Shown here piece after piece: positions 30,095 to 34,382 of a DNA stretch of 34,402 nucleotides. Source of the stretch: an archaeon (GTDB taxonomy: Archaea > Undinarchaeota > Undinarchaeia > Undinarchaeales > JALTGF01); assembly GCA_027077325.1 (NCBI GenBank), contig JALTGF010000052.1, positions 1-34,402 of the forward strand, given 5' to 3'. The translations under genes were made by a program, and so were the position numbers. Below the pieces are notes generated by a model. That model was given only the letters and a program-made list of their open reading frames with translations, was not told the DNA's origin and ran no database searches. Each line of letters opens with the position of its first letter. The first letter of the stretch is position 1.

Positions 30095-30135
30095 AGAAAA
30101 ATTTTCTATCTTTCCCGCCGCCCAAAGATTTTTCT
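30095..30135. terminator. Candidate bidirectional hairpin between convergent genes
   Basis: AGAAAAA ttttcta TCTTT cccgccgccc AAAGA TTTTTCT. Confidence 0.4.
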
Positions 30136-31186
30136 AACGGGTGAGCGTTCTTTTATTTTTAAATTCTATTTTTCTAGCATATCTTATATTTTCTAATTGT
30201 AATTCTGCTGTTTTTAGAAGTTCATCAAAAGTAATAATTCTTATATGGGGTCTTAAATGCCTATTCCATTCATCAATCCATTTAATCTGTTCCTTATCTA
30301 ATTTGTAGCCAATCACAATATAACCAACAGGTGCCTGAATTTTATAAACTCCTGCTGTGCTGTATTCACTATATACATCTGACATTCTCATATACATAAT
30401 TAATTGATTAAGACCTTCAGCAAGTTCGTTAGTAATATGTAATCTTCCATCTTCTTTTTTCTTAAAAAATGGCTTGAGATTTGGACTTTTGAATTCAAAA
30501 ATTTTGTTTTCTCCAAGATCTGTTTTAATGTGCAAGTCAATAGCAAGTTGGGGATCTACTTCTTTTTCTTTTGCTTTTACTTCGCAATCAATACCAAGAA
30601 CCCACCTATTTTCTCTTATCTTCTTTTTTATCTCGGTTTCATTTCGTTTATTGTTTTTGTAAGAATCTTCTATTTTATTTTCTAATTCCTTTAAAGCTTT
30701 TTCATAATCTTCTAATTTGTTGATAATTTCTTTCGCTAATTCTAATTCATTCTCTTTTCTATTTAATTTTTCTTTCAACTCTTGAATATGCTGCTCCTTT
30801 GTTATTTGTTCGCTTCTCAATTCTTGTAGTTCTTTTTCTAGTTCTTGTTCTTGTTTTTTATAATATTCAAGTTCTTCTGCAATATCCGATATTTCCTTGC
30901 CCCAGATTTGAGATACAAATCTCCTCAATGTTTTGTAAAGCCAATTAAACCACTCCTTTAAATTAATGCTTTTAGGAATCCACACCCCGGGATGATGCTC
31001 TTTAAAATATGGTTGTGTTTTGGCAGTTCTTATTTTAATTCCTTCGTAATCATTTGAATTTTTGCTTATAGAAACTTGGGTAACAAAAGAATCATCTGAC
31101 CATTTTTCTGAATCTATATCTTTAATATACTCTAGTTTAGAAAAATCGTCTCTTCTTGATTTTTTCTTCTTATCTTTCCTAATCAT
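30134..31186 (-). CDS. Coiled-coil protein with C-terminal Shedu-like (DUF4263-like) PD-(D/E)XK nuclease domain
   Basis: DLHIKTDLGENKIFEFKSPNLKPFF...ELAEGLNQLIMYMR...VGYIVIGYKLDKEQIKWIDEWNRHLRPHIRIITFDELLKTAEL. Confidence 0.68.
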   Translation of the reverse strand: MIRKDKKKKSRRDDFSKLEYIKDIDSEKWSDDSFVTQVSISKNSNDYEGIKIRTAKTQPYFKEHHPGVWIPKSINLKEWFNWLYKTLRRFVSQIWGKEISDIAEELEYYKKQEQELEKELQELRSEQITKEQHIQELKEKLNRKENELELAKEIINKLEDYEKALKELENKIEDSYKNNKRNETEIKKKIRENRWVLGIDCEVKAKEKEVDPQLAIDLHIKTDLGENKIFEFKSPNLKPFFKKKEDGRLHITNELAEGLNQLIMYMRMSDVYSEYSTAGVYKIQAPVGYIVIGYKLDKEQIKWIDEWNRHLRPHIRIITFDELLKTAELQLENIRYARKIEFKNKRTLTR

Positions 31187-31197
31187 CTTTTATCATC

Positions 31198-33732
31198 TTA
31201 AGTGACAATATTTCCAAACTCTTCTCTCAATTTATGAATTTCAGAAACAGCCGCCCATTTTTTATAAAAAGCATCTTTTATTCTTTTACTTATTTTTAAT
31301 CTTTGATTTCTATTCTTTGCTATTGGCAAATACAACTCTTTCCAACGATCACCAATATTAGGCAAAGTTGTCTCGATAAATATTTTATTGTATAGCTGTT
31401 GTTGTGTTAGTTCATGAGATAATAAATAAATTAGATAATATGGGTTTATGTCCCATCTATTTTTTTCATTTATCACTCTTAAAACAAGCAATTCTCTAGT
31501 TAGAAGTACTTGTTTGTCATAAGGAGAGACCATAGCAACTGTACCTATCCTGTAACTGCCTCTTCTAACAAATATTAGATCTCTTTCTCGTAAATCAACG
31601 CCGTTTTTACCTTTAATTTTTTGATACACATGAAAGGGTATTAAAGATGTTGGATCTTTATAAAGTTCCCAATTAACTATATCTTTTACTCGGATATATG
31701 GTATCTCCCCTCTGCCTTTAAATTTACCTGGTGGTGAACCATGCCCATCAAAAGCTACAATTATCTTATTTTTCAATAATTCTTTTATTTGAATAAGTTC
31801 CAATCCTTGTTTCTCTGCTGCTTTTTTAAGTTCTTCCTCTCTTCTTTTCCAGTAATATCGTGGTACATAAGTATCGTGTTTAATCTCCTCTTTGCCTATA
31901 ACAAAAACATTATGGTTATTCTTATTCTCTGGATCTTTAATTTCTTTTCTAATTATAACTGTATCATCCCACAACTCATTGGTAAATTTTTGTTTTTCAT
32001 AATCAAAACGATAAATTAGTTTACCATTGTGATCGTGTCCCACCTCTTCAGCAACAGCCATTATTATTTTATCTTGTTGAGGCACATTTTTCTGAAGAAC
32101 TAATAACATTGTTTTTGCGTTACAATTTGGTCTAAATGTGTTATGAGCCAAATCAATTATTGCCTTGATATTATGTTTTTTTATAAATCCCAGTATATAC
32201 CTACTCTGTGGGGCATGGAAATATGTCTCTGGAAGAACGATACCTAAAATACCACCATCCTTGAGAAAATGTAAACATCTTTCAATAAATAAAACCTGTG
32301 GTTCTTCAGTTTCTTTTAAAATATTCGTTCTTTCAAATCGATCTTCTTCTTTTTTCCATTTATAAGCTAAGTCAAATTGCTTTAATTTTTCCTCACCTTC
32401 TACTTTAATTTTAGAACCGAAAGGCGGATTTGTTAAAACGATATCAAACATTTCAAATTTTATTTTTTCTCTAGTTTTACTCTTCCAATTTTTTGAGTTA
32501 TCAAGGCTATCCTCACAAAATACTCCACCTTTTCCGTCACCAATTATGGCCATGTAAGCTTTCGTCACTTTTGATAAGAAATAATCTTTATCAATTCCTC
32601 TAAAGTTTTCATTAGCTACTCTATTTTTTTCTCTTTCTATTTCATAAGGTGACCATCCATATTTTTGTCCTTCTTGTTCTACCTTTTTCCATACATATCG
32701 TAAACTATCTACCAAAAAACCACCACTTCCACAAGCAGGATCTAAAATTAAATCTTCGGGGGAAGGATCTATGACCTCTACAAGCGTTTGTATGACATTT
32801 CTCGGAGTAAAAAATTGTCCTTGAGAACCTTTGAGAGCTGGTCCAATAAAGGTTTCAAACGCATCAGCTATAACATCTCTTTCTGCTTCTAGCAAACAGA
32901 AATTTTGTAATTCTCCAACGGTATATGCTATTGATTTAGCATCTAATGTTATCTTATCGTCGGGATCTATGACTTCTTTATACTTTCCTTTAACACCATA
33001 ATAGAAGGGATCGCTTTTATCTAAAGTCTTATCTCCCTCAAAAATTTTTATAATCCGTTCTTTGATTTTTTTTGGATCTTCTCCCACTCCTGCCCTGAAT
33101 TTTACTATATCGTCAGGTTTAGTAAATTTTTCATCAAATATTTTACAAAAGATTATATTGATAAGTTGTTGAGCAAATACTTCGTCTCTTGTCACTCCAA
33201 CTGCCATCCCTGCCAAATAATTTCTCATCGCTTGAAAAACGAATTTTAAATTGTGAGATTTTTCCAGATCTCTTCTCTTAAATTTTCCTATATCTTCGAT
33301 TCTTTGACCAGCTTTTGGTATATTAGGTATCTCCTCAAAATAAACTTTACCTTTTTTTTCAATTTTTTTCAAGAATAGTCTTTCCTTACTATTAAACCAC
33401 ACTCCAAGAGGTGCTTCAGAAAATCTTAGATAATCTTGTAATTGTGATTTACCATCCTTTCTATTTTTCTTTTTACATTCAACAACTATCCATAGATTTT
33501 CATCAGATTTTTTATCTGATTTAAATACTGCAATATCCACTGGATATTCTTTTTTCTTATCGGAAGGTCTGGCTTTTACTCTCCACTGTGGATGTGTTTG
33601 TATTTGGGATTTTTTGTATCCATAATCTTCTACTAAAGTTCTAGCAAAAACTTGTACAGCTTCAACTTCTTCAGGAGTTGCTTTTACTTCTTGGTCTGAT
33701 ATAAAATCCTTAATATATCCTTCTTTAGTCAT
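31198..33732 (-). CDS. Fused restriction-modification protein: HSDR_N nuclease + HsdM N6-adenine methylase + C-terminal TRD
   Basis: YPVDIAVF..LWIVVECKKK (PD-(D/E)XK), DPACGSGGFLVDSL, TNPPFGSK, then a TRD-like tail GRGEIPYIRVKDIVNW. Confidence 0.88.
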   Translation of the reverse strand: MTKEGYIKDFISDQEVKATPEEVEAVQVFARTLVEDYGYKKSQIQTHPQWRVKARPSDKKKEYPVDIAVFKSDKKSDENLWIVVECKKKNRKDGKSQLQDYLRFSEAPLGVWFNSKERLFLKKIEKKGKVYFEEIPNIPKAGQRIEDIGKFKRRDLEKSHNLKFVFQAMRNYLAGMAVGVTRDEVFAQQLINIIFCKIFDEKFTKPDDIVKFRAGVGEDPKKIKERIIKIFEGDKTLDKSDPFYYGVKGKYKEVIDPDDKITLDAKSIAYTVGELQNFCLLEAERDVIADAFETFIGPALKGSQGQFFTPRNVIQTLVEVIDPSPEDLILDPACGSGGFLVDSLRYVWKKVEQEGQKYGWSPYEIEREKNRVANENFRGIDKDYFLSKVTKAYMAIIGDGKGGVFCEDSLDNSKNWKSKTREKIKFEMFDIVLTNPPFGSKIKVEGEEKLKQFDLAYKWKKEEDRFERTNILKETEEPQVLFIERCLHFLKDGGILGIVLPETYFHAPQSRYILGFIKKHNIKAIIDLAHNTFRPNCNAKTMLLVLQKNVPQQDKIIMAVAEEVGHDHNGKLIYRFDYEKQKFTNELWDDTVIIRKEIKDPENKNNHNVFVIGKEEIKHDTYVPRYYWKRREEELKKAAEKQGLELIQIKELLKNKIIVAFDGHGSPPGKFKGRGEIPYIRVKDIVNWELYKDPTSLIPFHVYQKIKGKNGVDLRERDLIFVRRGSYRIGTVAMVSPYDKQVLLTRELLVLRVINEKNRWDINPYYLIYLLSHELTQQQLYNKIFIETTLPNIGDRWKELYLPIAKNRNQRLKISKRIKDAFYKKWAAVSEIHKLREEFGNIVT

Positions 33733-33880
33733 ATTCTCTACCTATTTTAATTTTCTCTAATTCTTTTTTCATAAACATTTCAACTTGTTTAGACAAAATA
33801 ATTCCTCTCTCATCACAATATTTTTTATATTCATCATAAATTTTCTCATCAACACTTAACGATACAGTTTTTCTTCCCAT
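33725..33880 (-). CDS. 51-aa ribbon-helix-helix (CopG/Arc-like) protein
   Basis: Minus-strand MGRKTVSLSVDEKIYDEYKKYCDERGIILSKQVEMFMKKELEKIKIGREYD; overlaps the start of the RM gene by 8 nt; below ORF-track cutoff. Confidence 0.78.
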   Translation of the reverse strand: MGRKTVSLSVDEKIYDEYKKYCDERGIILSKQVEMFMKKELEKIKIGREYD

Positions 33881-33908
33881 TTTAACCCCTCATTTATCAT
33901 TATATAAG

Positions 33909-33928
33909 TTTAAATGTATCCATTTAAA
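33909..33928 (-). promoter_or_regulatory. Inverted repeat TTTAAATG-gata-CATTTAAA abutting a TATA-like element (TTATATA, 33901-33907), candidate operator
   Basis: Perfect 8-bp arms, 4-bp spacer, directly upstream of TATA and ~28 bp from the RHH ATG. Confidence 0.6.
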
Positions 33929-33964: not shown

Positions 33965-34132
33965 TTATAGCTTTTTACAGAAAAAGTAGCCGAGCGCTTC
34001 TTCCCTTATTCTTTCCGGAACTTTGAGTAGGCAGTGCCTGCAATATATTACTCTTCCTTTTTTAATTTGCTTTAGGGATACAGAGTTCTCCCCCTTGCAA
34101 AAGGGGCACACATACCTATATTTCCAACCCAT
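33965..34132 (-). CDS. 55-aa zinc-ribbon protein
   Basis: MGWKYRYVCPFCKGENSVSLKQIKKGRVIYCRHCLLKVPERIREEALGYFFCKKL (CxxC...CxxC). Confidence 0.65.
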   Translation of the reverse strand: MGWKYRYVCPFCKGENSVSLKQIKKGRVIYCRHCLLKVPERIREEALGYFFCKKL

Positions 34133-34182: not shown

Positions 34183-34382
34183 AGCCCCGAGGGAGAGTTG
34201 AACTCCCGACCTCCTGTTTGCTTGAGCCTTATGCGAGCGCGCTTGCGCGCGAGCCATGCTATCTCGCGAAGCGAGTGTAGCATATTTTTCGCCAGCCTTT
34301 TCAGGATGGCGCAAGCACTTACCCGTTCACATGTTAAAAGGCTGTACAAGACAGGCGCTCTAGCCAGCTGAGCTATCGAGGC
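34183..34382 (-). tRNA. tRNA-Thr (TGT) with ~126-nt anticodon-loop intron
   Basis: GCCTCGA TA GCTC..GAGC G CCTGT CTTGTA[126 nt]A ACAGG AGGTC GGGAG TTCAACT CTCCC TCGGGGC T. Confidence 0.9.

Follow-up and report, generated by a model that had tools for sequence, protein, structure and literature searches.

Restriction-modification (RM) enzymes of types IIG and IIB, such as BsaXI, BcgI and BpuSI, combine a nuclease and an N6-adenine methyltransferase in one chain. The S subunit is separate in BsaXI and BcgI. Shedu (DUF4263/PF14082) is known as a single-gene system. According to a recent review (PMC12904381), characterised Shedu uses its N-terminal part to sense DNA ends, near which the nuclease nicks; in E. 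coli, SduA binds the ends and places its nick a fixed distance away. The same review describes as unsettled how Shedu spares host DNA. An additional nuclease gene inside an RM operon is a feature of EcoPrrI-PrrC, in which prrC is located within the ecoprrI locus (PMC12707154), although PrrC is a tRNA anticodon nuclease whereas Shedu cuts DNA. We describe here an archaeal operon in which a Shedu gene, in contrast to the known single-gene systems, is predicted to be co-transcribed with an RM gene. Shedu-type nucleases were found repeatedly inside RM operons, pointing to a possible cooperation of the two against viral DNA. No description of Shedu within RM operons was found in a literature search; Gu 2025, which a BREX survey credits with a Shedu-BREX link, was outside the reach of that search, so novelty is provisional.

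Arrangement of the three-gene operon

The window, that is, the whole stretch of DNA analysed, is an entire contig of 34,402 bases from an archaeal assembly of 769 kb in 186 contigs. Genes for archaeal-type RNA polymerase, EF-2 and ribosomal proteins are present in it, in agreement with the original prediction, made from the sequence alone, that the DNA is archaeal. That prediction had also placed three neighbouring genes on the minus strand, and an open reading frame was confirmed for each of them. The features are as follows.

33899..33928, minus strand: AT-rich promoter-like stretch TTTAAACTTATATAAT, upstream of the operon (sequence and consensus scan)
33725..33880, minus strand: RHH-like protein, 51 aa, first gene of the operon (open reading frame and weak RHH/antitoxin family matches)
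31198..33732, minus strand: RM protein, 844 aa, with HSDR_N, N6-adenine methyltransferase and putative C-terminal half-S domains (Pfam, PADLOC, alignment and model)
30134..31186, minus strand: SduA nuclease, 350 aa (PF14082, PADLOC SduA, catalytic residues and low-confidence model)

The three genes form a tight minus-strand operon (30134-33880) in the order RHH-like, RM, SduA. The RHH-like gene and the RM start overlap, as had been noted earlier; the overlap amounts to 8 nt, and an 11 nt gap separates the RM stop from the SduA start. Neither the RM nor the SduA frame contains an internal stop. The gene downstream is convergent, and upstream lie an 84-nt AT-rich gap, a separate 55-aa zinc-ribbon ORF and then, at the contig end, an intron-containing tRNA gene. 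The operon therefore consists of only the RHH-like, RM and SduA genes. The GC content of the trio is ~30%, compared to ~37-40% in the adjoining DNA.

The single-chain RM protein and the SduA nuclease

The 844-aa protein had been proposed to be a self-contained RM enzyme, and profile searches bore this out. Residues 27-139 form an HSDR_N nuclease domain (HSDR_N_2 in Pfam, 52.9 bits; cut-off 25), in which the motif D66...E85-x-K87 is intact by alignment. Residues 284-622 form an N6-adenine methyltransferase (N6_Mtase in Pfam, 119.1 bits; cut-off 20.4) with intact PACGSGGF and NPPF motifs, and the PADLOC matches of the protein were MTase_II/MTase_I. The C-terminal region, residues ~620-844, had no match in Pfam; it gave a weak type I S subunit match (12.4 bits) and could be aligned to the specificity-like C-termini of relatives L004-L007, and it is regarded as one putative specificity (half-S) domain. 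A model of the protein built from ten sequences (pLDDT 73, with low values in the putative specificity domain) had the type IIB enzyme BsaXI as its best PDB match (E 2.3e-24), after which came type I M and the type IIG enzyme BpuSI. A D...E-x-K nuclease and an N6-adenine methyltransferase lie in the same chain, as in type IIG enzymes. The protein differs from the described type IIG and IIB enzymes in its HSDR_N_2-type nuclease and in the single putative half-S domain fused in the same chain. Most likely, it is a type IIG-like single-chain enzyme with the co-expressed Shedu nuclease as a second tier.

The best NCBIfam match of the RM protein was MAD2 (368.9 bits), whose layout of HSDR_N and N6-methyltransferase it shares, and the operon might on that account be what is left of a MADS (methylation-associated defence) locus. 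Membership was rejected because the score falls short of the curated 720-bit cut-off and no other MADS-type gene was found adjoining the operon. The protein further differs from MAD2 in its putative fused specificity domain, and we consider a MADS origin improbable in the extreme.

The likeness of the coiled-coil 350-aa protein to Shedu/DUF4263 was upheld, with an SduA_C (PF14082) score of 45.5 bits against a Pfam cut-off of 27 and a PADLOC SduA match of 5e-13. E231 and K233 of the expected E-x-K site are retained, as are D217 and Q261, and all four residues are invariant across 10 aligned SduA proteins. The protein shares with known Shedu a PD-(D/E)XK domain (residues 182-324) with all catalytic residues and a variable N-terminal part. 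It differs in having, in front of the nuclease, a small beta domain (~30-75) and a long coiled coil (~76-190), where a helix of ~115 residues is predicted. The single-sequence model was of low confidence (pLDDT 54.5); its five top PDB matches were all B. cereus Shedu (best E 8e-3), which was matched by both the profile and the fold searches. No match of the small beta domain to a known domain, including end-sensing ones, was found in Pfam or by PDB profile search. A PC4-like identity, considered from the pattern of strands and helices, was unsupported in the same searches.

SduA could itself be the restriction nuclease of the pair and HSDR_N no more than structural or regulatory. The HSDR_N E-x-K motif is indeed lost in three RM relatives (L006, L008 and L009), which by alignment retain the methyltransferase motifs. 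The window protein, however, keeps D66, E85 and K87, and its nearest relatives are without Shedu, so that SduA is very unlikely to have this role.

Close relatives of the RM protein either occur singly or are accompanied by an S subunit, in both cases without Shedu. One, of 57% identity, comes from a single-cell genome of Pelagibacter, in which a separate gene probably encodes S; on Spiroplasma citri plasmids, relatives at ~57% identity occur as broken copies. Full-length single-chain relatives, with no Shedu gene beside them, stand alone in another archaeon (L171 and L172, two copies, 46% identity) and on Gram-positive plasmids (L020 and L021). These full-length relatives indicate that the RM enzyme does not need Shedu. 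A further archaeon carries a specificity-domain remnant (L173:4247-5110), 60% identical to RM residues 547-844 and without the methyltransferase part. In RM relatives that lack HSDR_N, a conserved ~335-aa protein beginning MATGRTIS... precedes the RM gene (L007:5991-7007 and L004:88-1095) and is perhaps their separate nuclease.

Shedu genes within RM operons

The surroundings of Shedu genes were surveyed by PF14082 search of 394 archaea (5 genomes positive), three archaeal phyla (87, 34 and 23 genomes) and two bacterial phyla, of which one had 25 positive among 297 genomes and the other 12 among 299. The surroundings of most matches were retrieved, and HsdM/MTase, HsdS, HsdR and SduA were labelled with custom-built profiles; those for RM were made from few proteins, taken from the surveyed and similar loci. 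Genes on the same strand with gaps of <200 nt were counted as sharing an operon. By this definition, 11 of 45 sampled SduA genes share their operon with an RM gene (hsdM, hsdS, hsdR or type IIG). The 45 loci are not independent, include the window itself and in some cases lie on contigs that stop close to the SduA gene. The proportion was 6/10 in archaea and 5/35 in bacteria, and at least six changes of the RM-operon state were needed on the SduA tree. Most bacterial Shedu genes lie outside RM operons, which indicates that Shedu does not need RM.

Several arrangements with hsd genes were found: hsdM-sduA-hsdS in L083, with overlapping frames, and in L101; hsdM-158 aa-hsdS-sduA-hsdR in L091; hsdM-sduA in L032, at a contig end; and S-M-348 aa-sduA-S-260 aa-103 aa-hsdR in L165. 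The last (L165:1659-11095) is a heavily loaded archaeal type I RM operon, in which hsdM and hsdR enclose SduA and proteins of 348, 260 and 103 aa. Another archaeon (L033) repeats the layout of the window, with a type IIG chain that runs 11 nt into the sduA frame. This chain contains HSDR_N_2, methyltransferase and TaqI_C domains (PADLOC REase_MTase_IIG, 438 bits), and is alignable with the window RM protein over the methyltransferase core only, at ~25% identity.

Shedu and RM could nevertheless be two independent defence genes under a common promoter, brought together by shuffling in a defence island. Relatives of each occur alone, and a search for the trio in GTDB contigs (16 RM relatives), at 7 plasmid relatives examined and in the 394 archaeal genomes found no second instance; neither an SduA nor an RHH gene was found adjoining the RM relatives at the loci examined. 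The operon counts argue against independence. AbiEii control loci, all from a single bacterial phylum, shared an RM operon in 0/40 cases compared to 11/45 for SduA (Fisher p = 0.0006), or 5/35 when bacteria only were considered (p = 0.019). Mere proximity to RM gave a smaller contrast, with 13/45 SduA loci against 4/40 AbiEii loci having RM within 6 kb (p = 0.034), and of 40 random 14-kb windows a single one had an RM match, a weak one (20.8 bits). Frames overlapping those of RM genes, found repeatedly, also speak against independence, which we consider unlikely though by no means negligible.

The original prediction had suggested that the RM enzyme and the Shedu-type effector may form a composite system, and had named a lack of recurrent association of the three genes as grounds for refuting it. 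The outcome of this check is divided: the trio was not found to recur, but as a pair RM and Shedu do recur in one operon, well above controls. A composite system of these two is a reasonable reading of the sequences; the RHH protein is not a recurring component. Close relatives of SduA were not found in plasmids, phages or viral contigs. One distant match lay in a viral contig, and no RM gene was noticed beside it.

Proposed cooperation and control of the operon

We propose that the operon is an anti-virus defence module composed of an RHH-like repressor, a type IIG-like RM enzyme and Shedu as a second tier primed by DNA ends, a tentative reading to which we give slightly less than an even chance. 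The single-chain RM enzyme would methylate adenine in its own target, and its HSDR_N domain would cut unmethylated DNA. Cuts in foreign DNA would expose ends that the co-translated Shedu nuclease may recognise and degrade, so that the invader would be destroyed even after few cuts. Since the RM enzyme would make ends only in unmethylated DNA, the two activities would fit together. Several observations weigh against this reading: RM and Shedu each occur without the other, the N-terminal domain of SduA had no match among known end-sensing domains, and the HSDR_N motif is lost in some RM relatives.

SduA could instead be held inactive and be released only once a viral anti-restriction protein inhibits the RM enzyme, by analogy with PrrC in the type I operon EcoPrrI. 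In several operons SduA is flanked by hsdM and hsdS or adjoins hsdS, a placement that parallels that of prrC within the ecoprrI locus (PMC12707154), and the long coiled coil of SduA could contact RM subunits. The known trigger of Shedu, however, is DNA ends rather than RM inhibition, and the RM partners vary widely (type I and type IIG), so that no single RM surface is conserved. Release upon RM inhibition appears rather unlikely to us.

A broader and more doubtful proposal is that Shedu embedded in RM operons constitutes a distinct two-tier immunity, preferred by archaea and assembled through independent type I and type IIG pairings, in which restriction licenses a sequence-independent nuclease either via ends or via RM inhibition. 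If the action of Shedu in these operons is confined to ends that restriction has made, or to cases of restriction failure, the RM partner would supply the specificity by which Shedu spares host DNA, and that question would become directly testable with the RM-Shedu pair. RM operons would then be assemblies of swappable nuclease parts.

Under the end-primed reading that we favour, the 51-aa RHH-like protein probably regulates the operon and is a probable autoregulator. Its best match to an RHH-type family was DUF6364 (19.8 bits; Pfam cut-off 27.3), those to RepB, CcdA and RelB were weaker, and profile searches found no match to any RHH family above its cut-off. The predicted gene was confirmed as a reading frame, and its RHH identity, which had also been predicted, is likely but not proven. 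In a Thaumarchaeota MAG (L035), a gene for a 112-aa RHH-like protein (2061-2399) lies directly upstream of the SduA gene (387-1898).

The AT-rich stretch at 33899..33928 is a possible archaeal TATA box for the operon; promoter-like sites in the region were no more numerous than chance in the consensus scan. The zinc-ribbon ORF just upstream (33965-34132, minus strand) weakly matches Elf1 as well as the restriction-alleviation family Lar. The tRNA gene (34183-34382, minus strand; Rfam 46.2 bits) carries a ~126-nt intron in the anticodon loop. ARAGORN identified it as Ala(TGC) with the intron at 36/37, while the canonical archaeal position 37/38 gives TGT (Thr).
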